Positions 1-20,199 of a stretch of 64,000 bases of DNA are shown here, piece by piece; position 1 is the stretch's first letter, and each line of letters starts with the position of its first letter. A program made the translations under genes and the position numbers. Source of the DNA: Streptomyces odontomachi. GTDB lineage: Bacteria; Actinomycetota; Actinomycetes; Streptomycetales; Streptomycetaceae. The stretch is taken from positions 186,001 to 250,000 of the forward strand of contig NZ_JAMJWG010000002.1 in the NCBI RefSeq assembly GCF_024435355.1, read 5' to 3'. The notes below the pieces were generated by a model that did not search any database, was not told where the DNA came from, and saw only the letters and a program-made list of their open reading frames with translations.

Positions 1-860
1 ATGCGCATCTCGGGGGTCGGCACACCGACCAGCACCACGGTGCCGGCCAGGTCGCGGGCGTAGAAGGCCTGCTCGTACGTCTCGGGGCGGCCGACCGCCT
101 CGATGACGACATCGGCGCCGAAGCCGCCGGTGAGCTCCCGGATCGCTTCGACGGGGTCGCCCTGGCGTGAGTTGACGGTGTGGGTGGCGCCCAGGCCGGT
201 GGCGGTGCGCAGCTTGCGGTCGTCGACGTCCACCGCGATGATCTTCGCGGCGCCGGCCAGCGCGGCGCCGGCGATGGCGGCGCCGCCGACCCCACCGCAT
301 CCGATGACGGCGACGGCGTCGCCGCGGCCGACGTTGCCCGTGTTGATGGCGGCGCCCAGGCCGGCCATCACTCCGCAGCCCAGCAGTCCCGCGGCGGCCG
401 GGGAGGCCTCGGGGTCGACCTTGGTGCACTGGCCGGCGGCGACCAGGGTCTTCTCGGCGAAGGCGCCGATACCGAGGGCAGGGCTCAGCTCGGTCCCGTC
501 GGCCAGGGTCATCTTCTGCTCGGCGTTGTGCGTGTCGAAGCAGTACCAGGGACGGCCGCGCAGGCAGGCACGGCACTGGCCGCACACGGCACGCCAGTTG
601 AGGATGACGAAGTCGCCGGGGGCGACTCCGGTGACGCCGGCACCGACGGACTCGACGACGCCGGACGCCTCGTGGCCCAGCAGGAAGGGGAACTCGTCGT
701 TGATGCCGCCCTCCCGGTAGTGCAGGTCGGTGTGGCAGACCCCGCACGCCTGCACCTTCACCACGGCCTCGCCCGGGCCGGGGTCCGGGACGGTGATGGT
801 CTCGATCGCGACCGGTTCGCCCTTGCCCCGCGCGACCACACCCTGCACCTGCTGTGCCAT
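1..860 (-). CDS. mscR: S-(hydroxymethyl)mycothiol dehydrogenase (partial at window edge)
   Basis: This is a zinc-dependent alcohol dehydrogenase of the class that oxidises the mycothiol adduct of formaldehyde to S-formylmycothiol in the cytoplasm. About 286 codons are visible and the C-terminus lies beyond base 1. The N-terminus carries the catalytic zinc ligands Cys42 (GVCHTDLHY) and His63-Glu64 (LGHEASG). A Cys-rich structural zinc region ([11 protein letters not shown]) follows, then the NAD Rossmann motif [10 protein letters not shown]. The ATG at 860 follows a GAGAAAGGG ribosome site. It is the last visible gene of the aromatic operon, directly after the vanillate demethylase reductase. 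That fits removal of formaldehyde released by O-demethylation. The family assignment is strong; the mycothiol cofactor is inferred from similarity and the actinobacterial context. Confidence 0.9.
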
Positions 861-1016
861 GTTCGGCAGCCCTTTCTCTCGGCTCACTCGCTGTTGCTTC
901 ATGCTTGCTCGTCGTTCATGCCCGCTCGGCCCTGCGTCCCCGTCGCTCGCGCCGAGTCTCTCGCGTACCGGCGCGATCGGCGCGGATCGTGCGGGGGCGG
1001 GTTGCCCACGGGCCGG

Positions 1017-2012
1017 TCAGAGGTCCAGAACCAGCCGTTTTGACGCCGCCCGGGACACGCACACGAACATCACGTCGCCCTCGGCGCGCTCCGCCTCGGT
1101 GAGCAACGAGTCGTGGTGCTCCGGTATGCCGTCCAGGACGCCGGTCTCACAGGTGCCGCAGGTGCCCTCGCGACAGGACGAGAGCACCGGGAGCCCGGCG
1201 TCTTCGAGGACCTCCAGCACGGAGCGGTCCGGGGGCACGGTCAGGGTCTGCCCGGTGCTCGCGATCTCCACGTCGAACGCCTCCGCCGCACCGTCGCCGG
1301 CGGCTGGGCCGGCGGCGGGCTCCTGCGCCTTGGGGGTGAAGCGCTCGACGTGCAGAGCGCCTGCGGGCCAGCCGCCGGCGCAGCGCTGTTCCACCGCGTC
1401 GAGCAGGCCGGCGGGCCCGCAGCAGTACACCTGGGTGTCCCGCTGGGGGGTGCCGAGCAGCGCGTCGAGGTCGAGCAGTCCCGTCTCGTCCTCGGGGCGC
1501 AGCGCCACCCGCTGCGGATGGTCGCGGACGAGTTGGTCGGCGAAGGCCATGGAAGCGCGGGTACGGCCGCCGTAGACGAGGTGCCAGTCGGCGCCGCGCC
1601 GGGCGGCCTCGGCGATCATGGGCAGGATCGGGGTGATGCCGATGCCACCGGCGATGAAGAGGTAGCGCGGCGAGTCGACCAGCCGGAAGTGGTTGCGCGG
1701 GCCCCGCACGCGTACCGTGCCGCCCTCGGCGAGCACGTCGTGCACATGGGCCGAGCCGCCGCGGCCGTTCTTCTCCCGCAGGACTGCCACGTTCAGTTCG
1801 GACCTGTCGCCCGGGTCGCCGCACAGCGAGTACTGCCGGACGAGCGCGTCGCTGAGGAGCACGTCGAGGTGGGCGCCCGGTTCCCAGGAGGGCAGCGGTT
1901 CACTCCGCGGGTGCGTGAGGGTGAGCCGGACGACGCCGTCGGCGAGCGGTTCCTTGCGCGCGAGGGTCAGTTCGAGCTCGCGCTCGGGGCGCGGGGGCGT
2001 CGGGGTGGGCAT
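1017..2012 (-). CDS. vanB: Vanillate O-demethylase reductase subunit (VanB-type)
   Basis: A 331-aa electron-transfer protein that would pass electrons from NAD(P)H through flavin and a 2Fe-2S centre to the VanA oxygenase. The flavin-binding RQYSLC motif is at residues 59-64, the nucleotide motif GGIGITPI at 122-129 and CCGP at 197-200. The C-terminal plant-type ferredoxin domain carries Cys280, Cys285, Cys288 and Cys318. This order (reductase then ferredoxin) is typical of phthalate dioxygenase reductase-type proteins. The ATG at 2012 follows AGAGGAAGAG; a longer in-frame reading upstream lacks family sequence and was rejected. It lies downstream of vanA and the 72-aa gene and upstream of the formaldehyde dehydrogenase. 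The specific methoxy-aromatic substrate is inferred from context. Confidence 0.9.
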   Translation of the reverse strand: MPTPTPPRPERELELTLARKEPLADGVVRLTLTHPRSEPLPSWEPGAHLDVLLSDALVRQYSLCGDPGDRSELNVAVLREKNGRGGSAHVHDVLAEGGTVRVRGPRNHFRLVDSPRYLFIAGGIGITPILPMIAEAARRGADWHLVYGGRTRASMAFADQLVRDHPQRVALRPEDETGLLDLDALLGTPQRDTQVYCCGPAGLLDAVEQRCAGGWPAGALHVERFTPKAQEPAAGPAAGDGAAEAFDVEIASTGQTLTVPPDRSVLEVLEDAGLPVLSSCREGTCGTCETGVLDGIPEHHDSLLTEAERAEGDVMFVCVSRAASKRLVLDL

Positions 2013-2218
2013 GTCGGTTTCTCTTCCTCTTCCACGTGGGTGACGGTGCGACGCGCCTGCGGGGGCGCCCCGGGGAGGGGGTCGGGGGCGCCCCCGGAAA
2101 GGGCGGGGGACGATGCACACCGTCTGAAGGCCTGGCGGCACGGCAGGTCGCCATGGGCCCGCCGGCCGCCTCGGACCGGGTGTCAGACCGGGCACCGGGT
2201 GTCGGAACGGACCGGGTG

Positions 2219-2437
2219 TCAGACCCGGACCGGGTCCTGTGCCTGCGCCCGTGCGGGTGCCTCGGGGTGTTCCAGGAGCCAGTCCCACAGCTCGACCGGA
2301 TCCTCGAACTCCCGCTCCGCGCCGCAGTAGCAGACCCCGAGCAACCGGTCGGTCCCCGGCACCCAGCGGACCCGCAGGACACCACCGGGCAGGGCGTCGA
2401 AGTCGTGCTCGCGCAGCACGGCGACGTGCTCCCGCAT
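2219..2437 (-). CDS. Small Cys-X-Cys protein translationally coupled to vanA
   Basis: A 72-aa ORF whose ATG overlaps the vanA stop codon in a TGATG junction, so the two are probably translationally coupled. The sequence is acidic and Trp-rich towards the end, with a central CYCGAERE element (Cys36, Cys38) followed by FEDPVELWDWLLEHPE. There is no signal peptide or membrane segment. I do not recognise a named family. The position between oxygenase and reductase genes suggests an accessory role, for example in iron-sulfur handling or in oxygenase stability. That role is inference from position only. The ORF is credible because it starts exactly at the vanA stop and sits in a tight operon. Confidence 0.7.
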   Translation of the reverse strand: MREHVAVLREHDFDALPGGVLRVRWVPGTDRLLGVCYCGAEREFEDPVELWDWLLEHPEAPARAQAQDPVRV

Positions 2438-3498
2438 CACAGCGCCGGTTCGCCGGTCGCCGCGCCCTCTTCGGCCAACCGCTTGAGGATGCGACGGGCC
2501 GCCAGGCCACCGGTGTCGATGTTGATGCTGAGTTCCTGGTAGCCGTCCCGCTCCGCGGTGATGGCCTTCTCGAGCACGTCGAGCGCCACGACGTCCTGGA
2601 GGACGACGGTGCGGTTGTTGTCGTGCATGAACGCGGAGACCTTCTGGTCCTCGAGCGCGAAGTCGCGGGCGACCGCCCAGAAGTCGTGGGTGGTGCTCTC
2701 CGTCTCCGGGGTGATCGCGTACACCACCTCCACGTGGAAGGCGTCCGGGTCGCTGCCGTCCGCGTCCGGCGGCGGGGTGCCCACCGGGGCGATACGGCTG
2801 TGCAGCAGGTACAGGCAGGGTGCGTGGTACTCGATGTCCTGCCAGCGGGTGATCCGGCCCTTGATGCCGGTCGAGTCCGCGTAGAAGGACGGGCAGGCGG
2901 CGTCGTCCATGTGCCGGCTGACGCGTACCACGGCGGCGGCGTCGTCCGCCTCGGTCGTGATGGGGGTCTCGGCGACCTCCGGGGTGCCGATGTAGCCGCC
3001 GTGCAGATACGTCTCGTGGGACAGGTCGAGCAGGTTGTCGACCAGCAGGTCGTAGCGTGCCGCCAGCGGCTCCATGCCGGAGACCACCGCGAAGCCGGGA
3101 TCGTCGAGCCAGGGCGCGCGCGGGATGAGCTTCTCGTCGGCGCGGTCCCGTTCCCCGATCCACACCCAGACGAACGAGTCCTGCTCCACGACCGGATACG
3201 ACGTCAGGCGGGCGGTGCGCGGCACCCGTTTCTGGCCCGGCACGTTCACGCAGACGCCGTCGGCGCCGTAGGTGAAGCCGTGGTAGCCGCACACCACCTT
3301 GTCGCCGTCCAGGTGGCTGGGCTCCTGGGAGAGCGGGAAGCGGCGGTGCACGCAGCGGTCGGACATGGCCGTGACCGCGCCGGACTCGGTGCGCCACAGC
3401 AGGATCGGCTCGCCGCACACCGTGCGCGAGAACAGCTCGCGGCCCACCTCCCGGCCATAGGCGGCGACGTACCACTGATTGCGGACGAATGACGTCAT
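2437..3498 (-). CDS. vanA: Vanillate O-demethylase oxygenase subunit (Rieske, VanA-type)
   Basis: A 353-aa Rieske non-haem iron oxygenase that would O-demethylate vanillate or a similar methoxybenzoate to the phenol plus formaldehyde. The Rieske cluster ligands are Cys49-X-His51 and Cys70-X2-His73. The mononuclear iron motif is Asp158, His161 and His166 in NLLDLSHETYLH. The length matches the VanA subfamily. The start at 3498 has AGGAGG five bases upstream; the ATG 33 bases earlier has no ribosome site. It is coupled by a TGATG overlap to the 72-aa gene and followed by vanB. The adjacent aryl aldehyde dehydrogenase and formaldehyde dehydrogenase support a vanillate-type substrate. Confidence 0.92.
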   Translation of the reverse strand: MTSFVRNQWYVAAYGREVGRELFSRTVCGEPILLWRTESGAVTAMSDRCVHRRFPLSQEPSHLDGDKVVCGYHGFTYGADGVCVNVPGQKRVPRTARLTSYPVVEQDSFVWVWIGERDRADEKLIPRAPWLDDPGFAVVSGMEPLAARYDLLVDNLLDLSHETYLHGGYIGTPEVAETPITTEADDAAAVVRVSRHMDDAACPSFYADSTGIKGRITRWQDIEYHAPCLYLLHSRIAPVGTPPPDADGSDPDAFHVEVVYAITPETESTTHDFWAVARDFALEDQKVSAFMHDNNRTVVLQDVVALDVLEKAITAERDGYQELSINIDTGGLAARRILKRLAEEGAATGEPAL

Positions 3499-3696
3499 CG
3501 GTCCTCCTGCGAAGGTGCCGTTGTGCTTCAAACCGTGCTCAGCGTCCTCCCGGGGCCCGACCGTGAACAGGGCGGCTTCCGCTCAGCGGAAGCGCTTCGG
3601 CCGATTGGCCGTCCCGTCCGCCTCCCCTGTCCGGCCGGCCCTGCGCACCTTCACCCTCCCCATGCACCTCGCTCATCACTCCCCCGCCTCCCGCGC

Positions 3697-3768
3697 CTTC
3701 TCTGCCGCCCCTGCCGCCCCTGCCATCCGTGCCCGTCCCTGCCGTCCTTGCCGTCCCTGCCGTCCCGG
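3697..3768 (-). repeat. Degenerate 9-bp purine-rich tandem repeat
   Basis: Just after the aldehyde dehydrogenase stop codon the minus strand reads as imperfect repeats of GGGACGGCA / GGGGCGGCA for about 70 bases, strongly strand-biased (purine-rich on the transcribed sense). It fills much of the 270-bp gap before vanA. It does not form an obvious hairpin. It may be simple slippage-derived sequence or a transcript-level element. Confidence 0.6.
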
Positions 3769-5226
3769 TCAGAACGGGTACACCGCCTCCTCGGCCCGTA
3801 CGGTGATCCAGCGGGTCTCGGTGAAGGCCTCGATGTTGGCGGCGCCACCGAAGCGGGCTCCGGTGCCGGAGGCGCCGACGCCGCCGAACGGGACGTGTGC
3901 CTCGTCGTTGACCGTCTGGTCGTTGATGTGCACCAGGCCCGTGGGGACGCGTTCGGCCAGGTCCATGGCCTTCATGACGTCCCGGCTGAGGATGCCCAGC
4001 GACAGGCCGTACTCGCTCGCCGTGGCCAGCGCGATCGCCTCCTCGGAGGTGGCGAAGCTGCGCACCGGCGCCACCGGCCCGAAGACCTCCTCGGCGTAGG
4101 CGGGCGAGGCGTCGGTGACGTCGGTGAGCACCGTCGGCCGGTAGAACAGGTCCTCGTAGGTGCCGCCGGTGGCCAGCCGGGCGCCGCCCGCGACACTCTG
4201 CGTGACCAGCCCGTGGATCTTGTCGCGCTGGCCGGCGTCGATGACCGGCCCGAGGGCGACCTCCGCGCGTGCGGGGTCTCCGACGGCCAGCCGTCCGGCC
4301 CGCTCGGCGAGGCGTTCGGCGTACTCGTCCGCGACCGACTCGTGGACCAGGTGGCGTCCGGTGCTCATGCAGACCTGGCCCTGGTGGAAGAAGGAGCCCC
4401 AGGCGGCGGTGGAGGCGGCACGCTCCAGGTCGGCGTCGGGCAGCACGATCAGCGCCGAATTGCCGCCGAGCTCCAGATGGGCGCGCTTGAGGTGCTCGGC
4501 CGCCGCGGCGCCGACCCGGCGACCGGCCGCGGTGGAGCCGGTGAAGGAGATGATCCGGGTCTGCGGGGCCTCCACCAGGGCCGCGCCCGCCTCGGCGCCG
4601 CCCGGCACCAGGCTGAGCACGCCCTCGGGCAGCCCGGCCTCCTCGAAGACCCGCATGATGCTGACGCCGCCGCCGACCGCGGTCCGCTGGTCGGGCTTGA
4701 GGACGACCGCGTTGCCGAGCGCGAGGGCGGGGGCGACGGAGCGTATGGCGAGGACCAGCGGCACGTTGAACGGTGCGATCACGCCGACCACGCCTGCGGG
4801 CACCCGGCGCACCATGCTCAGCCGGGGTTCGGCCGACGGCAGCAGCTCGCCGAACGGTCGGGACACCAGGGCGGCCGCCTCGTAGCACTCCTGGGCCGCG
4901 GTCGTGGTCTCGAAGGCCGCCTTTCCGGGGATGCTGCCGGCCTCCCTGATGAGCCAGTCCTGGATCTCCTCGGCGTGCCGGGTGAAGAGGTCGCCGGCCC
5001 GGCGCAGCACCGCAGCGCGCGCGGTGTAGGGGGTGCGCGCCCAGGCGGTCTGGGAGCGTGCGGCGTGCTCGGCGGCGCGTGCCACGTCCTCGCCGCCGGC
5101 GTATCCGACGTGCTCCAGGATCTGCCCGGTGGCGGGCTCCACGACGGGCGTGGTGCCGCCCGCCGCGGCCGTCCAGCCACCGATGTGGACCTTGCCCGAC
5201 CAGGTCTGCGGAGCGAGCAGCGACAT
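3769..5226 (-). CDS. Aromatic aldehyde dehydrogenase (vanillin/benzaldehyde type)
   Basis: A 485-aa NAD(P)-dependent aldehyde dehydrogenase that would oxidise vanillin, benzaldehyde or a related aryl aldehyde to the acid. The cofactor-binding FTGSTAAG lies at residues 228-235, the general base Glu252 in LELGGN, and the catalytic Cys286 in HQGQVCMSTG. The length is normal for the family. The start at 5226 follows AAGGAG at good spacing; an upstream in-frame ATG at 5250 is a less likely alternative. It sits between the arylglyoxylate decarboxylase, which would make the aldehyde, and vanA, which would use the acid. Substrate choice is inferred from these neighbours. Confidence 0.88.
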   Translation of the reverse strand: MSLLAPQTWSGKVHIGGWTAAAGGTTPVVEPATGQILEHVGYAGGEDVARAAEHAARSQTAWARTPYTARAAVLRRAGDLFTRHAEEIQDWLIREAGSIPGKAAFETTTAAQECYEAAALVSRPFGELLPSAEPRLSMVRRVPAGVVGVIAPFNVPLVLAIRSVAPALALGNAVVLKPDQRTAVGGGVSIMRVFEEAGLPEGVLSLVPGGAEAGAALVEAPQTRIISFTGSTAAGRRVGAAAAEHLKRAHLELGGNSALIVLPDADLERAASTAAWGSFFHQGQVCMSTGRHLVHESVADEYAERLAERAGRLAVGDPARAEVALGPVIDAGQRDKIHGLVTQSVAGGARLATGGTYEDLFYRPTVLTDVTDASPAYAEEVFGPVAPVRSFATSEEAIALATASEYGLSLGILSRDVMKAMDLAERVPTGLVHINDQTVNDEAHVPFGGVGASGTGARFGGAANIEAFTETRWITVRAEEAVYPF

Positions 5227-5254
5227 CGCGGACTCCTTGGGGTTGTTCATGAGC

Positions 5255-5289
5255 GGGATACGAGATACGGGATATGGGATACCGAATAC
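5255..5289. repeat. Five tandem 7-bp repeats (GGGATAC-like)
   Basis: Five consecutive heptamers, GGGATAC, GAGATAC, GGGATAT, GGGATAC and CGAATAC, lie in the 147-bp gap just upstream of the aldehyde dehydrogenase start and downstream of the decarboxylase stop. The spacing is an exact 7 bp. The function is unknown. It may be an expandable repeat affecting translation or message processing in the middle of the operon. Confidence 0.75.
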
Positions 5290-5373
5290 GACGTTAGGGG
5301 GCCTGGGGAGGAACGGCCCAACGGGGGCGTTGATCTTGGGACGGGGGCGTGGCCGGGCGAGCGGGTGCGGCGG

Positions 5374-6972
5374 TCAGGGTTCGAAGGTCCGATCGGCTTC
5401 CACGACCACGTCGAGCAGCAGGGGGGCGGTCCGGGTGGCGAGGGTGGGGGTGAGGGCGTCGAGGGTGTCGAGCAGCTGGGCATGGCCGGTGACACGGGTG
5501 GCGGGACAGCCGAGCGCGGTGGCCAGGCCGCTGATGCTGATGTCCTCGAAGGCGGGCCACGGCGCCTTGCCCCCCTGCTTCTCGGCGAGCCGGTCCATGA
5601 TCGCGTAACGTCCGTTCGTGAGGACCACGAAGACGGCGCCGACGCCGTAGTGCGCCGCCGTCCACAGCGCCTGCACCTGGTAGAGCGACGAGCCGTCGCC
5701 GACGACGGCGACCACCGGCCGCCGGGGCTCGGCCATGCGCACCCCGATCGCCGCGGGCACCGCGAAGCCGAGGCCGCCCATGGCGGCGCTGAGGAAGCCC
5801 AGCGGTGCCCGGGCGGGCAGCAGGGCGTGCAGGTCGGGACGGTTGGAGGGGGTCTCCTCCACGACGACGGTGTCGACGGGCAGCCGCTCGGCGAGCGCGG
5901 CCAGCACATGGGCGGCGCGCAGCGACTCGCCTGCGGCCGGCGGCTCGGGGCGTGGCCGCTTCGGCGGCAGCACGGGGGTGGTGGCGCGGGCCGGCGTGCG
6001 GGCGGTGAGCTGCACGCAGAAGTCGGCCAGCGGCGCGAGGACGGCGAGCTCGACCGGGGCGCGGTGGGCCTCGGCAGGGTCGTCGGTGACCAGCGCGAGC
6101 CGGGTGCCGGCGGGCACCAGGGGACCCTCCTCGTAGGCGTACTGGCGCAGCACCGGGGCGCCGATGGCGAGCACCAGGTCGTAGGGGGCGAGGGTGGCGC
6201 GCAGGCGGGTGCGGTCGGCAGGCAGGTGGCCGGCGAACAGGGCGTGGTCCTGCGGGAACCCGGCGCGCGCCCCGAACGACTCCTGCCACACCGGGCAGCC
6301 CAGCCGCTCCGCGAGGCCGACCAGGGCGCTCCAGGTGTCGGCGTTGTCGGCACCAGCGCCCACCACCAGCGCGGGCGCGCCGGCGGCCGCGAGCAGGTCG
6401 GCGACCTCCTGCACGGCGCCCGGAGAAGCGGCGGTGGCGTGGCGCAGCGCGGCGGGGGCCGGCACCGGCAGGTCGTCGGCGGGCTCCAGCCAGTCGTTCA
6501 TGGGCACGATGACCAGCGCGGGACCGCGTGCGGTACGGGCGGTGTGCGCGGCGCGGCCGATGGCGCCGGGGACGTCCTGGGCGCGCGACGGGGTCTCGAC
6601 GCTCACCGGGTAGTCGCCCGCGAGTGAGTCCAGGCGTCCGGTGAGGAAGGGCTCCTGCGCGAGGTGGCGGCGATCCTGCTGGCCGACGAGGACGACGAGG
6701 GGGGCGCGGTTGACGCGTGCGGTGGCGAGGGCCCCGACGGCGTTGCCGAGGCCGGCGGTGGTGTGCAGGACCGCCAGGGCGGGTGCGTCGCGCACCACGG
6801 CCCAGCCGGTGGCCGCCCCGACGACGGAGCCCTCGTGGAGGGCGAGGACGAAGTCCAGGTCGTCGGGGAGGTCGGTGAGCAGCCCGACCTCGGTGGAGCC
6901 GGGGTTGCCGAACAGGGTGGTGATGCCGTGCCGACGCAGTTCGTCGAAGGCGGCTTCGCGGACGGTGCGCAT
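5374..6972 (-). CDS. mdlC: Benzoylformate decarboxylase-like ThDP enzyme
   Basis: A 532-aa thiamine-diphosphate enzyme expected to decarboxylate an arylglyoxylate to an aryl aldehyde. It has the full three-domain layout. Ser26 (FGNPGSTEVG), Glu47 (LHEGS) and His70 (AVLHTTAG) fall at the positions of the active-site residues of the Pseudomonas putida enzyme. The ThDP/Mg motif starts at GDGSSLYQ and ends at the Asn of LTNGRY. At the position of the second catalytic histidine (His281 in P. putida, APVFRYHQY) this protein has Tyr278 (APVLRQYAY). That suggests a shifted substrate or mechanism. It lies between the transporter and the aldehyde dehydrogenase. A vanilloylformate-like substrate is inferred from vanAB downstream; plain benzoylformate is the alternative. 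Confidence 0.85.
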   Translation of the reverse strand: MRTVREAAFDELRRHGITTLFGNPGSTEVGLLTDLPDDLDFVLALHEGSVVGAATGWAVVRDAPALAVLHTTAGLGNAVGALATARVNRAPLVVLVGQQDRRHLAQEPFLTGRLDSLAGDYPVSVETPSRAQDVPGAIGRAAHTARTARGPALVIVPMNDWLEPADDLPVPAPAALRHATAASPGAVQEVADLLAAAGAPALVVGAGADNADTWSALVGLAERLGCPVWQESFGARAGFPQDHALFAGHLPADRTRLRATLAPYDLVLAIGAPVLRQYAYEEGPLVPAGTRLALVTDDPAEAHRAPVELAVLAPLADFCVQLTARTPARATTPVLPPKRPRPEPPAAGESLRAAHVLAALAERLPVDTVVVEETPSNRPDLHALLPARAPLGFLSAAMGGLGFAVPAAIGVRMAEPRRPVVAVVGDGSSLYQVQALWTAAHYGVGAVFVVLTNGRYAIMDRLAEKQGGKAPWPAFEDISISGLATALGCPATRVTGHAQLLDTLDALTPTLATRTAPLLLDVVVEADRTFEP

Positions 6973-7077
6973 GCGGTGCCGATCCTTGCTGGTGGGGGCG
7001 TGGTTCTGGCCCGGCCGGCGGGGCCGGCACCGATCCGGTCCGCGGTGCGGCGGCCCCGTGGCCGGGCGGGTCGGGGG

Positions 7078-8598
7078 TCAGGCCAGGTGGACCGCGCGCT
7101 TTCCGCGCACCTGCGACAGCACCAGGAACCCGGCGACGACAAGGCCCGCGTCCAGCCAGACGGCCGCGGTCCAGCTGCCGGTCGAGTCGCGCAGCACACC
7201 GCCGATGGCCGGGGAGAGCACCGCGCCCATCTCGCCGATCAGGTTCTGCATCCCGAAGGCGGAGCCGCGCAGGTCGGGCCGGGCCAGCTCGGCGGTCAGC
7301 GCGTGCCCGACGGGTTGCAGGGCGTTGAAGAACAGGCTGGCGGTGAAGAGCAGGACGCCCATGACCCACAGGGAGGGGTGGTCGGCGGCGCTGAGGTACC
7401 AGGCGAAGGCGACGGTGAGGACGGCCTGGAGGCCGGTGAAGGTCAGCATCATCTCCTTGCGGCCCCAGCCGCGCCGCAGGCCGTAGTCGGACATCCAGCC
7501 GCCCGCGGGGAACCCGATGATGCCGGCGCCGGCGTTGAAGCCCGCCGTCAACGCCGAACTGGCGAAGGAGGAGTGGGCGGCGCCCGCGACGATGGACACC
7601 GACCAGAAGCTGAAGAACCACAGGTTCCACAGGATCGCGATGTAGACGAGGTAGATGCAGAACAGGTCGCGGTGCTTCAGCACCGGCCCGAGCTCCTCGC
7701 CCTTGCGGGCCAGGACGAACAGGACGAGTCCCACCGCGAGCGCGACTTCGAGCACGGCGATCCACAGTTCGGACAGGCCCACGCCGTCGCCGATCAGGTA
7801 CACGGCCATGATCAGGACGAGCGAGACCACCGCGTAGCCGCCCAGGTGCAGGGCCGCCCGGCCGACCACGGCCGGCTTGAGGTGGGAGCGGAAGTACCAG
7901 GTCAGGGTCAGGGCCACGACGAGGGTGGCGACGCCCAGCACCCAGAACGCCATCCGCCAGGCGTCGGTGTCGGACAGCATGCTCTTGCCGAAGTCGACGA
8001 AGTCCGGGGTGAAGATGGTGGCGATGGTGATGCCGATGGCGAGGCCGGTGATGACGACGCCCATGCCGAGGCTGCGGTCCCGCTGCGGGGTGCTCGCCGT
8101 GATCAGGGTGCGGTCGTTGGAGTAGAAGGCGCCCTCGCCGAGGCCGGTCACCACGCGCAGCACGATGAAGGCGACCAGGCCGCCCAGGAAGCCGGTGAGC
8201 ACCGTGGTGACGCCGGCCCAGAGCAGGCTGACCACGATGATGGTGCGGTGTCCGTAGCGGTCGCCGAGGTAGCCGCCGGGGAACTGGGTGAGCATGTACC
8301 CCGCGAAGAACAGGCCGCCGATGAGCCCGCCCAGGGAGTGCGGATGTTCCGCGTGCGCCATGAATCCGACGCCGTTGTCGATCATCCAGGTGACCACCGG
8401 GCCGGTGACCGAACGGTCCGCCGCGCTGACCGTCCAGCCGAGCAGGAGCAGCAGCCACAGGGTGTGCCAGCGCCGCCAGCGCCCGGGGGCCGCGCCGGCC
8501 GCCGGGTCCGCCGCGGCGGCCGGGTCACCGGGCCCCGGGGCGCCGGGGGTGTCCGGCGCGGCTGGGGGGACGGTGTTGTCGCCCGGTACAGACGTCAT
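7078..8598 (-). CDS. MFS transporter, probable aromatic-acid uptake
   Basis: A 506-aa major facilitator protein with about twelve hydrophobic segments. The loop motif GYLGDRYGHRT follows the second helix and a proline/alanine-rich N-terminal tail precedes the first. The overall pattern resembles the anion:cation symporter group that takes up organic acids. The ATG at 8598 follows AAGGAG; the ATG 30 bases upstream has no ribosome site. It is the first gene of the minus-strand aromatic operon, facing the IclR regulator across a 174-bp promoter region. It would import the arylglyoxylate or methoxybenzoate that the downstream enzymes use. The substrate is inferred. Confidence 0.85.
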   Translation of the reverse strand: MTSVPGDNTVPPAAPDTPGAPGPGDPAAAADPAAGAAPGRWRRWHTLWLLLLLGWTVSAADRSVTGPVVTWMIDNGVGFMAHAEHPHSLGGLIGGLFFAGYMLTQFPGGYLGDRYGHRTIIVVSLLWAGVTTVLTGFLGGLVAFIVLRVVTGLGEGAFYSNDRTLITASTPQRDRSLGMGVVITGLAIGITIATIFTPDFVDFGKSMLSDTDAWRMAFWVLGVATLVVALTLTWYFRSHLKPAVVGRAALHLGGYAVVSLVLIMAVYLIGDGVGLSELWIAVLEVALAVGLVLFVLARKGEELGPVLKHRDLFCIYLVYIAILWNLWFFSFWSVSIVAGAAHSSFASSALTAGFNAGAGIIGFPAGGWMSDYGLRRGWGRKEMMLTFTGLQAVLTVAFAWYLSAADHPSLWVMGVLLFTASLFFNALQPVGHALTAELARPDLRGSAFGMQNLIGEMGAVLSPAIGGVLRDSTGSWTAAVWLDAGLVVAGFLVLSQVRGKRAVHLA

Positions 8599-8772
8599 CG
8601 GGAACTCCTTGTTCCGTTGCGCGGCCACAGACGGGGAGGGCGGGGCGGCCGGGGACGGTCATGTTCTGCTGGGCGGAATGCACCAGGCCAGGGCCAGATG
8701 CCCGGCTTCAGCGTGCGGACAACGTACGACCGCGGCTCATCTGGTGGAATAGGTGAAACTAGAATTTCTGCT
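8599..8772. promoter_or_regulatory. Divergent control region, IclR gene / aromatic operon
   Basis: A 174-bp region between two divergent starts. TAGAAT at 8760-8765 matches the streptomycete -10 consensus. It lies eight bases before the regulator ATG (8773), with no Shine-Dalgarno sequence between, which predicts a leaderless regulator transcript. The AT-rich stretch 8745-8770 contains a short dyad (AGAA-T-TTCT) and is the most likely IclR operator. The operator is a guess; the -10 element is directly visible. Confidence 0.5.
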
Positions 8773-9603
8773 ATGTCGAATCTTCACCGGGATGCGCCCC
8801 GGCACAAGACCGCCTCCGCCGCGGCGTCCGCCGACGACGTCTACGGCGCGAGCTCGGTCGCCAACGCCCTGCGGGCGCTGGCCTACCTGGGCAGCAGGGA
8901 CACCGTGCGGGTCACGGACGTCAGCGACCAGCTGGGGGTGGCCCGCTCCACCGCGCACCGGCTGCTGCACACGCTGCGCCTGCACGGGTTCGTGGAGCAG
9001 GTCCCCGGCGGCCGCCAGTACCGGCTCGGGCCCGTGCTGCTGGCGCTGGCGCAGGGCAGGGCCGCGGTGGAGTCGCGCAGCCGGATCGGTGTCGCGCAGT
9101 TGGTGCGGGTGGCCCGCCCCCACTTGAAGCGGTTGCGCGACGAGGCGGCGGAGACCAGCAACCTGGTGCAGCTGGACGGGCCCGACGCGCTGTTCCTGGA
9201 CGGCGTGGACGGACCGCATCCGCTGCGGGTCGCCCCGCGCACCGGTGACCGGGTGCCCGCCTATGCGACCGCGGGCGGCAAGGCGCAGCTGGCACAGCTG
9301 CCCAAGGAGGCGGTGCGCCTGCTGTATCCGGCCGGGCTCGACCCGCTCACCTCGTGCACCGTCACCGGTCTCGACGAGCTGGACGAGGACCTGGCCAGGA
9401 CGCGGGAGTGCGGTTGCGCCCTGAACATCGACGAGAGCGTCATGGACGTGCACGCCTTCGGTGTGCCGGTCCACGACGGGCACGGGGTGTGCATCGCGGC
9501 GGTGACGGTCTCCGCACCGAGCACCCGCGGCGGCCGGGCCCGTGCCGCGGAGTTGCTGCCGCTGCTGCACCGGGCCGCGCGCGGCATCACCGGGCAGTTG
9601 TGA
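8773..9603 (+). CDS. IclR-family transcriptional regulator
   Basis: A 276-aa regulator. The winged helix-turn-helix is at about residues 35-90 (DVSDQLGVARSTAHRLL), followed by the IclR ligand-binding domain with its conserved GDRVPAYATAGGKAQLA segment and the closing VTVSAP region. It is divergent from the aromatic operon and is its obvious candidate regulator, sensing an aromatic acid. Activator or repressor mode cannot be read from sequence. The start is placed at the ATG right after a good -10 element. No ribosome site is present, consistent with leaderless translation. Confidence 0.9.
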   Translation: MSNLHRDAPRHKTASAAASADDVYGASSVANALRALAYLGSRDTVRVTDVSDQLGVARSTAHRLLHTLRLHGFVEQVPGGRQYRLGPVLLALAQGRAAVESRSRIGVAQLVRVARPHLKRLRDEAAETSNLVQLDGPDALFLDGVDGPHPLRVAPRTGDRVPAYATAGGKAQLAQLPKEAVRLLYPAGLDPLTSCTVTGLDELDEDLARTRECGCALNIDESVMDVHAFGVPVHDGHGVCIAAVTVSAPSTRGGRARAAELLPLLHRAARGITGQL

Positions 9604-12747: not shown

Positions 12748-12804
12748 CACCGTGATCGCGCTCACGGGGGCTGTCCCGACGGCACGCCGGCCCCGTCGAG
12801 TCGA

Positions 12805-14451
12805 TCAGGAAAGGCTCAGAAGCCGCTCCAGCGCTTGGCCCAGGACCGCTTCCGGATCCGGCACGGCGCCGGGTGCGCGCCAGGCCACGAAGCCGTCCGG
12901 GCGCACCAGGACGGCGCCGTCAGGTGCCGTGCCGTGCGCGCTCGCCCAGTCGGCACCGTCTTCGGTGCGCAGATCGGCGTCGGGGTCGGCGCCCACGCCG
13001 TAGACGTCGAGCGGTACGGACAGCCGGTCGGCGGCGCGCCGGGCAGCCGGGCGCCACGCGTCGTCGCGGGCGTCCGTGAGCAGCACCAGGGAGCGTTCGT
13101 ACAGGTCCAGGGTGGAGATCCGGGTGCCCGAACCGGTCCGGGTCAGCCACAGGTGCGGTGCACGGGTACCGGGCTCGCCGGTGAGGCTCATCCGCTCCGG
13201 CAGTACGGGTTGTTCGGGGTCGGTGCCCAACACCGCGCCGTTCGGGTAGCGGTAGCCCAGCACCACGGGCAGCATGCCGCCCTGCGGCGGGCCGCCGGCA
13301 CCCCGGGTGGGGGGCGGTGCGTACCCGGGGTGGCTGTGCTCGGCCGAGCGGACCGATGCCCGCCGGCCGGTCAGCTCGGCGATCGGCCGGCGTTCCTGCT
13401 CGTAGCTGTCGAGCAGGCCGGCGCCGGCCCAGCCGCCCAGCACGGCGGCGAGTTTCCACGCCAGGTTGTGCGCGTCCTGGATGCCGGTGTTGGAGCCGAA
13501 CGCACCCGTCGGCGACATCTCGTGGACCGCGTCGCCGGCCAGCAGGACGCGGCCGGCCGCGTACCGGTCGGCCACCCGCTCCGCGGCGTGCCAGGGCGCC
13601 CTGCCGGTGACCTCGACGTCGAGGTCCGGATCGCCGGCCACGCGGCGGATGTGCTCGGCGCAGCGGTCGTCGGTGAAGTCCTCCAGGGTTTCGCCGTCAT
13701 CGGGCCGCCACGGCATGTGGAACACCCACCGCTCCCGGTTGTCCACCGGCAGCAGCGCGCCGTCCGCGCCCGGTTCGGTGAGGTAGCACACGATGAAGCG
13801 GCGGTCGCCGACGACTTCCGCGAGCCGGCGCGAGCGGAACGTGACGCTCACGTTGTGGAACAGGTCGCCCGCCCCGCTCCGCCCGATCCCCAACTGCTCG
13901 CGCACCGGGCTGCGCGGCCCGTCCGCCGCGATCAGGTACTGGGCGCGCACGGTGCGGTGCTCGCCGGTGTCGCGGCTCTTCACGACCGCGCTGACCCCGT
14001 CCGGGTCCTGCGCGAAGGAGAGCAGTTCGGTGGAGAACCAGAGCTCGCCGCCGAGTTCGCGCGCCTGCTGCAACAGGACGGGCTCCAGGTCGTTCTGACT
14101 GCACATGCACCAGTTGCTCGGGCTGAACCGGGCCAGCCCGCCGCCCGGGTCGATCTCCTTGAACAGCCACCGCAGATCGTCACCGGCCAGCGAGGACCCT
14201 TGCAGGATCCCGTGGTTGTCCGCCAGCACCGAGGCCGCCTCGTGGATCGACCGTTCGACGCCGGCGGTGCGGAACACCTCCATGGTGCGCACGTTGTTCC
14301 CGCGGCCCCGCGGGTGCGTGGACGTGGCGGCGTGCTTCTCGACCAGCACGTGCTCGATGCCGAGCCGGCCGAGGAACAGCGAGGCGGACAGGCCCACCAG
14401 CGAGCCGCCCACGATCAGGACCGGCACATGGCGGTCGACGGTCTCGTCCAT
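12805..14451 (-). CDS. whiE-ORFVIII: Spore-pigment FAD-dependent hydroxylase (WhiE ORFVIII type)
   Basis: A 548-aa aromatic-ring hydroxylase of the PHBH-fold FAD monooxygenase family, expected to oxygenate the polyketide made by the adjacent genes. It has the N-terminal dinucleotide motif IVGGSLVGL, the central AADGPRSPVR motif and the second FAD motif LLAGDAVHEMSPTGAFGSNTG. The C-terminal domain is thioredoxin-like, as in PgaE or RdmE relatives. It is divergent from the rest of the cluster across a 281-bp region. In S. coelicolor the whiE hydroxylase gene has the same arrangement and its promoter depends on a late sporulation sigma factor. That regulation is known there and only inferred here. 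Confidence 0.9.
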   Translation of the reverse strand: MDETVDRHVPVLIVGGSLVGLSASLFLGRLGIEHVLVEKHAATSTHPRGRGNNVRTMEVFRTAGVERSIHEAASVLADNHGILQGSSLAGDDLRWLFKEIDPGGGLARFSPSNWCMCSQNDLEPVLLQQARELGGELWFSTELLSFAQDPDGVSAVVKSRDTGEHRTVRAQYLIAADGPRSPVREQLGIGRSGAGDLFHNVSVTFRSRRLAEVVGDRRFIVCYLTEPGADGALLPVDNRERWVFHMPWRPDDGETLEDFTDDRCAEHIRRVAGDPDLDVEVTGRAPWHAAERVADRYAAGRVLLAGDAVHEMSPTGAFGSNTGIQDAHNLAWKLAAVLGGWAGAGLLDSYEQERRPIAELTGRRASVRSAEHSHPGYAPPPTRGAGGPPQGGMLPVVLGYRYPNGAVLGTDPEQPVLPERMSLTGEPGTRAPHLWLTRTGSGTRISTLDLYERSLVLLTDARDDAWRPAARRAADRLSVPLDVYGVGADPDADLRTEDGADWASAHGTAPDGAVLVRPDGFVAWRAPGAVPDPEAVLGQALERLLSLS

Positions 14452-14732
14452 GAAATTCTCCGCTCTCAGCGTCTATGTACTAGAAAAGAGAATCATGGGT
14501 GATATGTTCTCAACGCTCAATTTCGTACAGCTTTGTGCACCCGTTCACCTGAACGGCGCGCATGCCTCGCGCCGCCTCCGGCGCCTGGCACGGATCAACC
14601 GCAGACAACTGCGGCACCCGAGAAACCGTCCGCGCGGCGCTCCGCTTCTCTCCACAGCGCCGCCGCGGACCCCTGACCTGAGCACGATCGGTGAGCCGAG
14701 TACGGCCGTACCGGCATGAGGGAGCGCAGAAG
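14452..14732. promoter_or_regulatory. Divergent whiE promoter region
   Basis: A 281-bp region between the hydroxylase and ORFI. The part next to the hydroxylase (about 14460-14535) is unusually AT-rich for this genome. It includes a loose dyad GAGAA...TTCTC around 14490-14513. By analogy with S. coelicolor it should contain two divergent, sporulation-timed promoters. I cannot assign exact -10/-35 boxes. Confidence 0.5.
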
Positions 14733-15842
14733 ATGACGGTCTTGCCACCACGGGTTTCCCACTCGGCCTTCGACGGCGCACGCCTGCGCGTGCTGCTGCT
14801 GGTGGACCTTCAGGAAGGCACGCAGGAGGAGTTCCTGCACGCCTACGGGCAGATGAACGAGAAGGTCGCCGCCGTCCCCGGGCACATCAGCGATCAGCTG
14901 TGCCAGTCGATCGAGAATCCCTTGCAGTGGCTCATCACCAGCGAGTGGCAGGACGCACCCACGTTCCTCGCATGGGCCAACAGCGACGAGCACCTGGCCG
15001 TGGTGGAGCCGATGCAGAACTGCATCCGCACCACCCGGTCGTTGCGCTACAACGTGCTGCGGGAGACCCACGGCGCTTCGGACGCAGGCCGTCAGCCGGC
15101 GGCACCCGCTCCCCAGGTGGCGCCGCGACTCGGCGAGGGAGTGGTCCGGCACGCCCTCACCTTCACCGTCAAACCGGGCAGCGAGGACATCGTCGCGAAG
15201 ATCCTCGCGGACTACGACTCCCCCGCGGCCCAGGTGGACGACAGCACCCGGCTGCGCCGCACCTCCCTGTTCCTGCACGGCAACCGCGTGGTGCGGGCCG
15301 TCGAGGTGGAGGGCGACCTGACGGCCGCGCTGCGGCACATCGCCCGGCAGCCCGAGATCCGTGCGGTCGAGGAGGCCGTGGACCCGCACCTGGAGCAGGA
15401 GCGGGATCTGAGCGATCCGCGTTCGGCGCGTGCCTTCTTCGCACGGGCCGCGCTGCCGATGGTCCATCACGAGTCCATGACCGGGCACGCGCCCGCCGAC
15501 CTGCACCGGCACGCGCTGCTCTACGAGGCGGCGCCGGGCTGCGGCAGCCGTCTCGCCCGGCTGTTGGCCGCCGCCGACGAGGCGGTGGCCGACGATCCGT
15601 CGAACCCGGTCGCCGTCAGCACCCTGTTCCAGAGCGGGGATGTCGTGGTCCGCCTCGTCGACATGGCCGGCCCGCTGAACGCACGGCCCGAGGCGGTCCT
15701 GGGCATCGCACCGGGGCGGGTCGCCGAGTTCGCCCGCCTGCTGCGGCCGGGCCATGCGCCCGCCCCCGGACAGGACCTCGCCGGCTTCCTCGCCGACCGC
15801 GCCATGACCCCGATCACGGAGCGCTTCGCGCCGCAGCGCTGA
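14733..15842 (+). CDS. whiE-ORFI: WhiE ORFI / SchA-CurD-type protein with three ABM-like modules
   Basis: A 369-aa protein of the SchA/CurD family found in spore-pigment and related type II polyketide clusters. It reads as three successive ferredoxin-like alpha/beta modules. The first (about residues 12-105) is an antibiotic-biosynthesis-monooxygenase-like domain ([26 protein letters not shown]). The second (about 135-225) begins [18 protein letters not shown]. The third (about 260-350) begins [16 protein letters not shown]. The start at 14733 follows GGGAG. It is the first gene of the plus-strand whiE operon. A role in polyketide cyclisation or oxidation is expected; the exact reaction is not known. 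Confidence 0.87.
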
Positions 15843-15881
15843 CAGCCGCACCCCTCGTCAACCCCGGAAGGACACCGTCAC

Positions 15882-16355
15882 ATGAACCAGCGGATGCTGG
15901 CGCCCCGCGTCGTGGACCTCAGCGACACACCGCACAACCGCAGACGCGGCGGCGATCTGCGCACCATGCTCACCCCCGCCACCGTGGGCGCGACCAGCGG
16001 CTTCATGGGGGTCGCCGTGATCGCGGCCGGCGAGCGGATCGGCGAGCACTACCACCCGTACTCCGAGGAGTTCGTCTATGTGACCAGCGGGCTGCTCGAG
16101 GTGGACCTGGACGGCGAGGCCCAACCGCTCGGGCCCGAGCAGGGTTTGTTCATCCCCCCGTACGTCCGCCACCGGTTCCGCAACGTGGGCGACGTCGAGG
16201 CCCGGATGGTCTTCCACCTCGGCCCGCTCGCGCCCCGCCCGGAGCTCGGGCACGTCGACACCGAGCAGACCGAGGACGCGGCGCAGCAGACCGCGCGGCA
16301 CGAGGCCGCGGTGCCCGCCGCCCAGGCCGCCGACGCGTCGGGCGCCGCCTCATGA
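15882..16355 (+). CDS. whiE-ORFII: Cupin-domain polyketide cyclase (WhiE ORFII type)
   Basis: A 157-aa single-cupin protein. The metal-binding first motif is [21 protein letters not shown], giving His-X-His and a following Glu. The second motif includes [12 protein letters not shown] with its His. An alanine-rich tail follows. Such cupins occur in spore-pigment and other aromatic polyketide clusters and help guide ring closure. Its stop codon overlaps the KS-alpha ATG, so the two are translationally coupled. The ATG at 15882 follows GGAAGGAC. Confidence 0.9.
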
Positions 16356-17617
16356 ATCGGCGCGTGGCCGTCACCGGAATAGGCGTGGTCGCACCGGGTG
16401 GCGTGGGCGCGTCGGCGTTCTGGGAACTGCTGGTCAGCGGCCGTACCGCGACCCGCGGCATCACGCTGTTCGACCCCGCGGGCTTCCGCTCCCGGATCGC
16501 GGCGGAGTGCGACTTCGATCCGGCGGCGTACGGACTGGACGACGACGAGGTGGCCCGCAGCGACCGGTACGTGCAGTTCGCGCTGGTCGCCGCCGGGGAG
16601 GCCTGGCGGGATGCGGGCCTGGACGGCGCCGCCCTGGAACCGTGGCGGCTCGGGGTCTGCCTGGGCACCGCGGTCGGTGGCACCACCCGGCTCGAGCACG
16701 ACTACGTCGCCGTCAGCCAGGCCGGTCGCCGCTGGGACGTGGACCACCGCCCGGCCGGGGCCCATCTGCACCGCGCCTTCTCGCCGAGCGCGCTCGGCGC
16801 CACGGTGGCCGAGAAGATGGGCGCACGGGGGCCGGTGCAGACCGTCTCGACCGGGTGCACCTCGGGCCTGGACGCGGTCGGGCAGGCTTGGCACGCCATC
16901 CGGGAAGGCCGCGCCGACGTGTGCGTCGCCGGCGCGTCGGACTCGCCGATCTCCCCCATCACGGTGGCCTGCTTCGACGCGATCAAGGCGACCTCGGCGA
17001 ACAACGACGACCCGGCGCACGCCTGCCGCCCGTTCGACGCGGACCGGGACGGGTTCGTCCTCGGCGAGGGCGGCGCCGTGCTGATCCTGGAGGAGTGGGA
17101 GGCCGCGCGGGCCCGCGGCGCCCGCGTGTACTGCGAGTTGAACGGCTATGCCACGTTCGGCAACGCCTACCACATGACCGGCCTGACCGCCGAGGGCGTG
17201 GAGATGGCCCGCGCCATCACCACCGCCCTGGACCACTCCCGGCTGGACCGCACCCGGATCGACTACGTCAACGCGCACGGCTCGGGCACCCGGCAGAACG
17301 ACCGGCACGAGACGGCCGCGGTGAAGCGGTCCCTGGGCGACCATGCCCGCACCATCCCGATGAGCTCCATCAAGTCCATGGTCGGGCACTCCCTGGGCGC
17401 CATCGGCGCCATCGAGGTGGCCGCCTGCGTGCTCGCCCTGGACCGCCAGGTGGTGCCGCCCACCGCGAACTACGCCACCCCGGACCCGGAGTGCGACCTG
17501 GACTACGTGCCGGGCACCGCACGGCCGGCGACGCTGCGCAGCGTGCTGTCGGTCGGCAGCGGGTTCGGTGGCTTCCAGTCGGCCGTGGTGCTCAGCCGGC
17601 CCGGAGGGAGTTCGTGA
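16352..17617 (+). CDS. whiE-ORFIII: Type II polyketide ketosynthase alpha (WhiE ORFIII type)
   Basis: A 421-aa ketosynthase that, with KS-beta, builds the poly-beta-ketone chain of the spore pigment on the ACP. The catalytic triad is intact: Cys169 ([13 protein letters not shown]), His309 (VNAHGSGT) and His346 ([11 protein letters not shown]). The glycine-rich end [15 protein letters not shown] is present. The length is normal. The start overlaps the cupin stop by four bases, and the stop overlaps the KS-beta start by one. This dense packing implies a fixed ratio of products. Confidence 0.95.
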
Positions 17618-18864
17618 TGGGCCACCGCCCCGGCCGTCGGGCCGTCATCACCGGTATCGGCGTCGTCGCCCCCAACGGCATGAGCACCGAGACGTTCTGG
17701 AAGAGCACGGTGGAGGGCATCAGCGTGCTGGACCGGATCTCACGCGAAGGCTGCGGGGAGTTGCCGCTCGCCGTCGCGGGCGAGGTGCGCGGCTTCGCCC
17801 CGGATGCGCTCATCGAGGAGCGCTTCCTCGTCCAGACCGACCGCTTCAGCCACTTCGCGATGGTCGCCGCGCAGGCCGCCCTGGACGACGCAGGGCTGAG
17901 CGGCGCCGGGCGGCGGGACCCGTTCGCGATGGGGGTGCTGACGGCGGCGGGCTCCGGCGGTGGCGAGTTCGGCCAGCGGGAGCTGCAACGGCTCTGGGGC
18001 ACCGGCCCACGGTCCGTCGGCCCCTACCAGTCCATCGCCTGGTTCTACGCGGCCAGCACCGGCCAGATCTCCATCCGGGGCGGCTTCAAGGGGCCGTGCG
18101 GCGTGGTGGCCAGCGACGAGGCCGGCGGCCTGGACGCGCTGGGGCACGCCGCCGCCGCCATCGAGCGCCAGGACTGCGACGCCCTGGTGGTCGGCGCCAC
18201 GGAGGCGCCGCTGGCGCCCTACTCCATGGTCTGCCAGCTGGGGTACCCGAGTCTGAGCCGGGGCACCGACCCGACCCGCGCCTACCGGCCGTTCACCCCG
18301 GCCGCCTGCGGGTTCGTGCCCGCGGAAGGCGGCGCCATGCTGGTCGTCGAGGACGCCCGCAGCGCGCGGGAACGCGGGGTGCGGCCCCGGGCCGAACTGG
18401 CCGGATACGCCGCCGCCTTCACCGCCGCCGACCGCTGGGAAGACGCAGCGGACGGCCTGGCCCACGCCGTGCGGGGCGCGTTGACGCAGGCCGGCTGCGC
18501 GCCCGAGGAGATCGACGTCGTCTTCGCGGACGCGCTCGGGGTCCCGGAGGCCGACCGTGCGGAGGCCCGGGGCCTCGCCGACGCCCTGGGCCCGCACAGC
18601 CTGCGGGTCCCGGTGGCGGCGCCCAAGACCGGCATCGGGCGCGCCTACTGCGGGGCACCGGTGCTGGACGTGGCCGCCGCGGTGCTGGCCATGGAGCACG
18701 GGCTCGTGCCGCCGGCGCCGAACGTCTTCGACATCTGCCACGACCTGGACGTGGTGACCTGCCGGGCCCGCCCCGCCACGCTGACGACCGCGCTCGTGGT
18801 CAGCCGCGGGCTGATGGGCTGCCACGCGGCGCTGGTGATCCGGCGCGCCGTCGACCCCCCGTGA
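17617..18864 (+). CDS. whiE-ORFIV: Type II polyketide chain-length factor, KS-beta (WhiE ORFIV type)
   Basis: A 415-aa ketosynthase-like partner of KS-alpha that sets chain length and starts decarboxylation. The nucleophile position that is Cys169 in KS-alpha is Glu168 here ([14 protein letters not shown]). In most chain-length factors it is Gln. The histidine motifs are also lost, as expected for a CLF. The ATG overlaps the KS-alpha stop (TGATG) and follows GGAGGGAG. The pair forms the usual heterodimer. Confidence 0.95.
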
Positions 18865-18944
18865 GCGCGCGCCACCGCCCCGCGTCTCACGAGGTCTTAC
18901 ACCCCCTGCATCGACCCCTCTGTTAGGAAGGAGCGGCCCTTTCC

Positions 18945-19683
<739 letters not shown>

Positions 19684-19755
19684 GCGCGCCCGACCCGCGC
19701 CGCCCCGACCGACCCTCCGCCGCCACGCCGTGTGCGGCCAGAACAGGAACCCTCC

Positions 19756-20088: not shown

Positions 20089-20134
20089 CGGCCACGGTGA
20101 CCCGGCCACGGCCGGCACCGGCACCCCCGTGCTC

Positions 20135-20177: not shown

Positions 20178-20199
20178 TGTGCTGCCGGCCTGCGCGGAA

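Follow-up and report, generated by a model that had tools for sequence, protein, structure and literature searches.

Several described bacterial systems resemble parts of the gene cluster reported here, which lies at the beginning of a 64,000-nucleotide stretch of Streptomyces odontomachi DNA (the window; positions 186,001-250,000 of contig NZ_JAMJWG010000002.1, genome size 10.57 Mb) and is predicted to lead from arylglyoxylates to protocatechuate. Decarboxylases of Rhodococcus jostii RHA1 and of Pf-5 were reportedly treated by Wei et al. in 2019, according to papers that cite this work. The articles that describe the resembling systems were accessible in part, and the statements drawn from them hold for those parts. 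RHA1 turns 4-hydroxybenzoylformate and 4-hydroxy-3-methoxybenzoylformate into 4-hydroxybenzaldehyde and vanillin, and deletion of vdh in its aryl C2 cluster makes both aldehydes accumulate from wheat straw lignocellulose (PMC9811514). In Pseudomonas sp. LLC-1, bzfRABCD adjoins the van operon, and BzfC oxidizes vanillin (PMC7760541). The vanA deletion mutant of Streptomyces scabies (SCAB_15301) accumulates vanillate, and vanA, vanB and IclR genes of this species respond to ferulate (PMC6904314). Moreover, genes for mycothiol-dependent formaldehyde oxidation are found near vanA2B2 on pRGD2 of Rhodococcus rhodochrous GD02 (PMC9618137).

Judged by gene content, the S. odontomachi locus is a joining of two modules that are usually separate, IclR1-transporter-decarboxylase-aldehyde dehydrogenase (ALDH) and IclR2-vanA-small gene-vanB, together with genes for a mycothiol-dependent formaldehyde dehydrogenase (MSH-FDH) and a metallo-β-lactamase-fold (MBL-fold) protein. 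We assign a probability of roughly 0.6 to the reading that it is a fusion of two catabolic modules running from vanilloylformate to protocatechuate, probably as two coordinated units; the substrate, the transcript structure and the pairing of regulators with sites are parts that we infer. Relatives were collected from a family sample of 150 genomes, a same-genus sample of 392 and a class sample of 296. At E ≤ 1e-150, the decarboxylase occurs in 19 of the 392 same-genus genomes, its own included, and inspection of all 19 neighborhoods revealed three composite loci: that of the window, the Streptomyces sulfonofaciens locus (G193, identified by coordinates) and a third in genome G430 (L192). The 19 comprise the window's own locus (L009), six others matched by coordinates (L044, L104, L106, L111, L112 and L115) and twelve more. 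The same ten genes stand in the same order in the two other genomes at 73-89% identity, a recurrence which argues that the order is not due to chance. An earlier note on this DNA, made from the sequence alone, had proposed such a comparison of gene order in other actinobacteria; once run, it found the composite order in these two other genomes of the genus and the modules mostly separate elsewhere. The note had also called the direct coupling of the decarboxylase to vanAB less usual, which agrees with three composites among 19 carriers in 392 genomes, although RHA1 and LLC-1 provide precedents (PMC9811514, PMC7760541). When named genomes were scanned with five aligned decarboxylases as the query, 146 loci were confirmed; among the best 80, one has the full set, that of S. 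sulfonofaciens JCM 5069 (L104), with identities of 78% (IclR1), 85% (transporter), 82% (decarboxylase), 87% (ALDH), 89% (VanA), 73% (small protein), 77% (VanB), 89% (MSH-FDH), 84% (MBL-fold protein) and 85% (IclR2). In midpoint-rooted trees, the composite trio forms a clade at 0.985 for VanA (46 sequences), 0.987 for the decarboxylase (107 sequences) and 0.998 for IclR2 (73 sequences, other IclR relatives included), and this clade in all three trees fits one joining event.

Each half exists independently, since the modules occur separately in relatives. Three other genomes of the family sample contain decarboxylases with 65% identity or more, with two copies in G021 and one each in G141 and G083. 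The G141 copy is accompanied by the same ALDH (80%) and IclR1 (61%), with no vanAB beside it; in G021, one copy has the ALDH (82%) alongside and the other is on a contig of 4.5 kb. In this sample, 29 other genomes have VanA orthologues with 64% identity or more, and their loci (L061-L088 and L091) were inspected. An IclR2 relative (at least 54%) is next to VanA or VanB in 15 of them, and none has the decarboxylase, MSH-FDH or MBL-fold protein at 45% or more; the best matches over 100 residues are 30% for the decarboxylase, 34% for MSH-FDH and 50% for ALDH. Around the decarboxylases of the best 80 loci, at least 45% identity was found for ALDH in 29, IclR1 in 15 and the transporter in 10, whereas genes of aromatic metabolism comprise PcaH in 11 and PobA in 4. 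Two Streptomyces clusters (L106 and L108) combine decarboxylase and ALDH with an adjoining IclR-type gene, pcaI, pcaF and pcaH, and L132 places PcaH, PobA, a transporter, the decarboxylase, a malate dehydrogenase (MDH)-like gene and ALDH in one stretch, which reads by eye as a 4-hydroxymandelate route. Because of these pca- and PobA-bearing loci, the predicted module can feed metabolism of the para-hydroxybenzoate/protocatechuate type. As a separate observation, a malate/lactate-dehydrogenase-like gene, a candidate hydroxymandelate dehydrogenase, is present in 12 of the 80 loci (L132, 10632-11567; L128, 9223-10155; and ten more).

The genes run on the minus strand from 8628 to 1 in the order major facilitator superfamily (MFS) transporter, thiamine diphosphate (ThDP)-dependent decarboxylase, ALDH, VanA, 72-residue protein, VanB and MSH-FDH, the last with its first 300 residues inside the window. 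Domain and family matches confirm the seven genes, in the order and with the identities given in the earlier note, and the chemical logic of its arylglyoxylate-to-protocatechuate route is supported as well. As to its seven-gene extent, the genes are all present, but the last one continues to -225, and the MBL-fold gene and IclR2 lie beyond. The transporter (7078..8628, alternative ATG start at 8598; Pfam MFS_1, 141 bits) exceeds the cut-off of no NCBIfam transporter model and is a probable uptake protein for arylglyoxylates or aromatic acids. The ThDP-dependent, benzoylformate-like arylglyoxylate decarboxylase (5374..6972) possesses the three domains TPP_enzyme_N, M and C, with NF005485 as its best NCBIfam model. 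The aryl-aldehyde dehydrogenase (3769..5250; Aldedh, 493 bits) carries the motifs FHQGQVC and LELGG with the catalytic Cys and Glu. Among solved structures it best matches a 4-hydroxybenzaldehyde dehydrogenase (E 4.8e-108), with a vanillin dehydrogenase at E 1.1e-95, and none of the 25 NCBIfam models listed is above its cut-off; by these sequence features it is assigned to the vanillin/4-hydroxybenzaldehyde dehydrogenases. VanA (2437..3498), the sole VanA_C match in the genome, has Rieske and VanA_C domains with the metal motifs CxH...CxxH (2Fe-2S) and DNLLDLSHETYLH (mononuclear iron), which fit the oxygenase of a vanillate O-demethylase. VanB (1017..2012), the predicted flavin/2Fe-2S reductase, matches FAD_binding_6 (21.8 bits against a cut-off of 21.1), NAD_binding_1 and Fer2, all above cut-offs, and has a CX4CX2C...C motif. 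MSH-FDH, an S-(hydroxymethyl)mycothiol dehydrogenase, extends from 902 to -225 across the window edge; its full gene scores 692.1 bits on TIGR03451 against a cut-off of 512.9 and encodes the only protein of the genome above it. Outside the window, the MBL-fold gene (-222..-854, minus strand; PF00753, 103 bits) overlaps MSH-FDH by 4 bases, and IclR2 (about -1770 to -934, start uncertain) is convergent on it. At the other end, IclR1 (8773..9603, plus strand; IclR_C and HTH_IclR) is divergent from the transporter gene. The longer intergenic gaps are those of ALDH-vanA (270 bp) and small gene-vanB (206 bp), and the other five junctions measure at most 123 bp.

In the pathway that we propose, module 1 (IclR1, transporter, decarboxylase and ALDH) would import an arylglyoxylate hydroxylated at the para position, with 4-hydroxy-3-methoxybenzoylformate (vanilloylformate) as the likeliest candidate; this would be decarboxylated to vanillin by the ThDP enzyme and oxidized to vanillate by ALDH. 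Module 2 (vanA, the small CxC protein gene and vanB) would O-demethylate vanillate to protocatechuate, the released formaldehyde would be disposed of via mycothiol by MSH-FDH with the MBL-fold protein, and protocatechuate would pass to unlinked pca genes. A different contig carries the gene for the protocatechuate dioxygenase β subunit (PcaH; 353 bits, with the cut-off at 296), whose neighbors look by eye like pcaI and pcaJ. What chiefly speaks for a 3-methoxy-4-hydroxy substrate is that VanAB of the composite takes the place held by PobA in L132. If the reading is correct, a compact gene set would turn lignin fragments with a methoxylated ring and a two-carbon side chain into protocatechuate and clear the formaldehyde, which would be useful for lignin conversion; the locus would also be a clear case of joined catabolic modules in which neither has lost its regulator gene or its operator-like site.

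The ALDH-vanA gap harbors a palindrome, CTTCCGCTGAGCGGAAG (3576..3592, minus strand), which is a putative vanA operator positioned 77 bp before the start codon. Allowing up to one mismatch, its consensus, CTTCCGYNNNRCGGAAG, stands ahead of the window's vanA and of 25 of the 28 other orthologues, or of 26 of 31 sequences when the window and two paralogues that miss it (L089 and L090, about 52%) are counted; L091, whose match falls short of the start, was omitted. As the consensus was written after viewing the same upstream sequences, these counts are descriptive. A palindrome with at most one mismatch was reached in 0.05% of mononucleotide-shuffled sequences, a control that ignores kinship. The whole genome contains three perfect palindromes, compared to none in the reversed control; the two others, inside open reading frames that look by eye like rpoB (L098) and the gene of an NB-ARC-type regulator (L100), were treated as background. 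The 15-base core is perfect in both other composite loci, where it again sits between ALDH and vanA.

A second conserved site, TTCTGCTATGTCGAA (8766..8780, plus strand), overlaps the IclR1 start codon and is a putative autoregulatory operator. All 17 of the 17 loci, the window's own among them (L043 and L109 are of the same genome), have a site with an internal ATG and at most one mismatch to TTCNGCNNNGCNGAA close to where the IclR1 relative begins; it takes the form TTCTGCTATG(T/C)CGAA or one close to it. The ATG was verified as the used start in the window, where its coincidence with the IclR1 start suggests a leaderless, self-regulated gene. A weaker operator-like site, TTCTGCTGGGCGGAA (8664..8678, plus strand), precedes the transporter gene and has one mismatch to the vanA core. 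An operator common to vanA and the transporter promoter was considered and rejected, as the transporter-side site is missing at up to one mismatch from both other composites. In total, 20 kb contain two sites within one mismatch of the vanA core, the transporter-side site being the second, and this number was reached in 0 of 200 shuffles. Scans for sigma-70 promoters and terminators found nothing above chance, and the ALDH-vanA gap has no terminator-like site. IclR1 is the probable regulator of the transporter/decarboxylase/ALDH module, and IclR2 probably acts at the vanA palindrome. Since vanA retains a conserved operator-like palindrome inside the cluster and two IclR genes are present, the cluster is probably to be read as two coordinated units of transcription, with an operator and an IclR regulator for each, in place of the one operon under an IclR regulator that had been claimed earlier.

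Several findings weigh against the vanilloylformate-to-protocatechuate fusion, and some of them lie in the decarboxylase itself. On NF005485, the benzoylformate decarboxylase equivalog model, it scores 463.2 bits, under the cut-off of 493. Alignment with the benzoylformate decarboxylase PpBFD, whose wild-type pocket we take to comprise His281, Ala460 and the motif GALRWF, puts Tyr278 at position 281 and Ile458 at position 460, and AIMDRL replaces GALRWF, with Arg and Leu at positions 463 and 464. Tyr occupies position 281 in 77 and Ile or Val position 460 in all of the other 80 aligned decarboxylases. The scores of four relatives of its kind are 463, 474.6, 485 and 493.5 bits (the last, L119, marginally above the cut-off), compared to 719 bits for L055, an MdlC-like Streptomyces enzyme with the PpBFD pocket. 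With its sub-cut-off score and a pocket unlike that of MdlC, the enzyme appears to be related to the benzoylformate decarboxylases but to belong to a subfamily of its own; it is not a strict MdlC orthologue, and its earlier description as MdlC-type is not supported. L051, L055 and L056 retain YH and GALRWF; they constitute a second, MdlC-like subfamily and have an ALDH (61%) as well as an MFS relative alongside. A search for a plasmid origin of the decarboxylase gave no match at E ≤ 1e-60. Might the enzyme act on an unrelated 2-keto acid, or mainly as a carboligase? Besides the low equivalog score, its Ile occupies the position of A460I, a change known to shift substrates in PpBFD, and the Arg and Leu at 463 and 464 point the same way. 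We nevertheless regard this as very improbable: Ser26, Glu47 and His70 (PpBFD numbering), which we take to be the catalytic residues of PpBFD, are conserved in 81 of 81 aligned sequences, and the ALDH in 29 of 80 loci stands among other aromatic-pathway neighbors.

The remaining points against the fusion concern linkage. No VanA orthologue was found in the module carrier G021, a draft assembly in 410 contigs (best E 4.4e-9), and the decarboxylase module seems to work without demethylation there. In the DNA examined for the other 79 of the 80 loci, some on short contigs, nothing matches VanA, VanB, the small protein, MSH-FDH or the MBL-fold protein at 45% or more. As module carriers without vanAB exist, 4-hydroxybenzoylformate, a live alternative, or benzoylformate could be the substrate. 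Decarboxylase and ALDH might then serve one of these acids while vanAB and MSH-FDH serve vanillate from ferulate, vanillin and similar sources, with no shared flux. Such a separation is consistent with the lack of vanAB in the examined DNA of those 79 relatives, with PobA in four of the 80 loci, with the 4-hydroxybenzaldehyde dehydrogenase as best solved ALDH match, with the operator-like site of vanA itself, and with the bzf genes of LLC-1, which adjoin van and use benzoylformate in the accessible part of the report (PMC7760541). It appears somewhat unlikely when set against the composite order retained in three genomes with MSH-FDH and both IclR genes, and RHA1 is reported, in the part available, to convert the 4-hydroxy and the 4-hydroxy-3-methoxy acid alike (PMC9811514). 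Furthermore, no mandelate-type dehydrogenase is linked to the locus. The pathway would be longer than the locus if its feed were 4-hydroxy-3-methoxymandelate or homovanillate, oxidized to the glyoxylate by an unlinked flavin mononucleotide (FMN) 2-hydroxyacid oxidase. Three strong FMN 2-hydroxyacid dehydrogenase (FMN_dh) matches elsewhere in the genome would allow for this; the accessible text on RHA1 has its glycolate oxidase convert mandelic acid to benzoylformate and 4-hydroxyphenylacetate to 4-hydroxybenzoylformate (PMC10167727, PMC9811514), and the malate/lactate-dehydrogenase-like gene in 12 of the 80 relatives' loci adds to it. We consider this extended route unlikely, as no such gene is linked here and the malate/lactate-dehydrogenase-like query found no match in the window or flanking locus DNA at E ≤ 1e-10. 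Finally, the vanA palindrome is also present at loci without an adjacent IclR2 relative, so that its regulator is not fixed. All genes sharing one strand, five of seven junctions being at most 123 bp and the ALDH-vanA gap lacking a terminator-like site in the scan would suit a single eight-gene operon under IclR1, the palindrome being a relic or a terminator hairpin. This too is doubtful. Of 28 other vanA loci, 25 carry the palindrome ahead of vanA, and no ALDH in the DNA examined there exceeds 50% identity (L073, on the other strand), so that the palindrome belongs with vanA rather than with this ALDH. All three composites keep a perfect core and have IclR2 alongside.

The 72-residue CxC protein (2219..2437, minus strand) is encoded between vanA and vanB, with a one-base overlap with the VanA stop; sequence searches of Pfam, NCBIfam and PDB found no match to it. 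Two Pfam families each matched one of 13 family members, at E 0.027 and 0.14. The protein was found in 20 of the 296 class genomes, its own included, and all 20 have it between VanA and VanB; in the family sample, 26 of the 29 other VanA loci have it at this place, and three close ones (L075, L083 and L085) have no recognizable copy. Residues invariant in 13 aligned sequences include Trp25, Cys36 and Cys38 (CxC), Pro47 (PV), Trp51 and His57. A Pseudonocardia plasmid with the order IclR-MFS-VanA-small-VanB-P450 encodes a relative of 65% identity over 40 residues, annotated as hypothetical protein. The single-sequence model has a mean predicted local distance difference test (pLDDT) score of 64.6 and a β-β-β-α core with a block pLDDT of about 69-87; a fold search with it found no match (best E 1.1). 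When a small protein in vanillate demethylase was sought in the literature, the text of PMC9867520 did not contain the word 'hypothetical'. The strict VanA/VanB linkage argues for a role of the predicted protein in the demethylase. It is possible, though we offer it tentatively and with the odds against it, that the protein is a dedicated third component of the actinobacterial vanillate O-demethylase, for example a partner that transfers electrons or an assembly factor that binds a metal or a cluster, and that the locus is a purpose-built arylglyoxylate-to-protocatechuate unit with halves co-regulated via related IclR operators. If the protein is required, reconstituting Streptomyces-type demethylases with nothing but vanA and vanB may leave out a part.

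Two further features were seen by eye. Short direct repeats of a CCCGGTCYGACACCCGGTCCG-like unit (about 2150-2230) run from the end of the small gene into the gap before vanB. Farther along the window, at about 12800-21100, lies what looks like a type II polyketide cluster of the spore-pigment kind, with a flavin adenine dinucleotide (FAD) monooxygenase, a cupin, an acyl carrier protein and cyclases.

Compared with the described systems, the locus shares individual parts with each. The aryl C2 cluster of R. jostii RHA1 likewise uses a benzoylformate decarboxylase and vdh for both acids (PMC9811514, PMC10167727); it differs in a linked FMN glycolate oxidase, ro02984, which is absent here, and vanAB and MSH-FDH are not mentioned in the accessible parts, the two loci being compared by description only. 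Pseudomonas sp. LLC-1 also has a benzoylformate decarboxylase, an MFS transporter and an ALDH beside its van operon, between vanK and vanR by the legend numbering, but it employs a LysR regulator and a porin, its van genes form their own operon, and the tested keto acid was benzoylformate; the available text, from which it was compared by description only, mentions neither a small CxC gene nor mycothiol genes (PMC7760541). S. scabies resembles the vanA module, with vanillate monooxygenase α and β near an IclR gene (SCAB_15301/15321/15331); an arylglyoxylate decarboxylase is not mentioned in the part of the report used for this comparison, again by description only, and gene number 15311, between both subunits, is absent from the text (PMC6904314). 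R. rhodochrous GD02 has a second vanAB close to mycothiol formaldehyde genes, as in the locus, in an acetovanillone pathway for which the accessible text mentions no arylglyoxylate decarboxylase (PMC9618137). In the open-licence literature, a search for vanillylmandelic acid degradation with vanillate and operon in bacteria found nothing; one for vanillate demethylase, Streptomyces and benzoylformate together found only a vanillin-production review, accessible in part; and no example of the fused genes with their two regulators turned up in the portions accessible to us. Altogether, the pathway idea itself is not new, and the locus presents a rare new arrangement of known parts.

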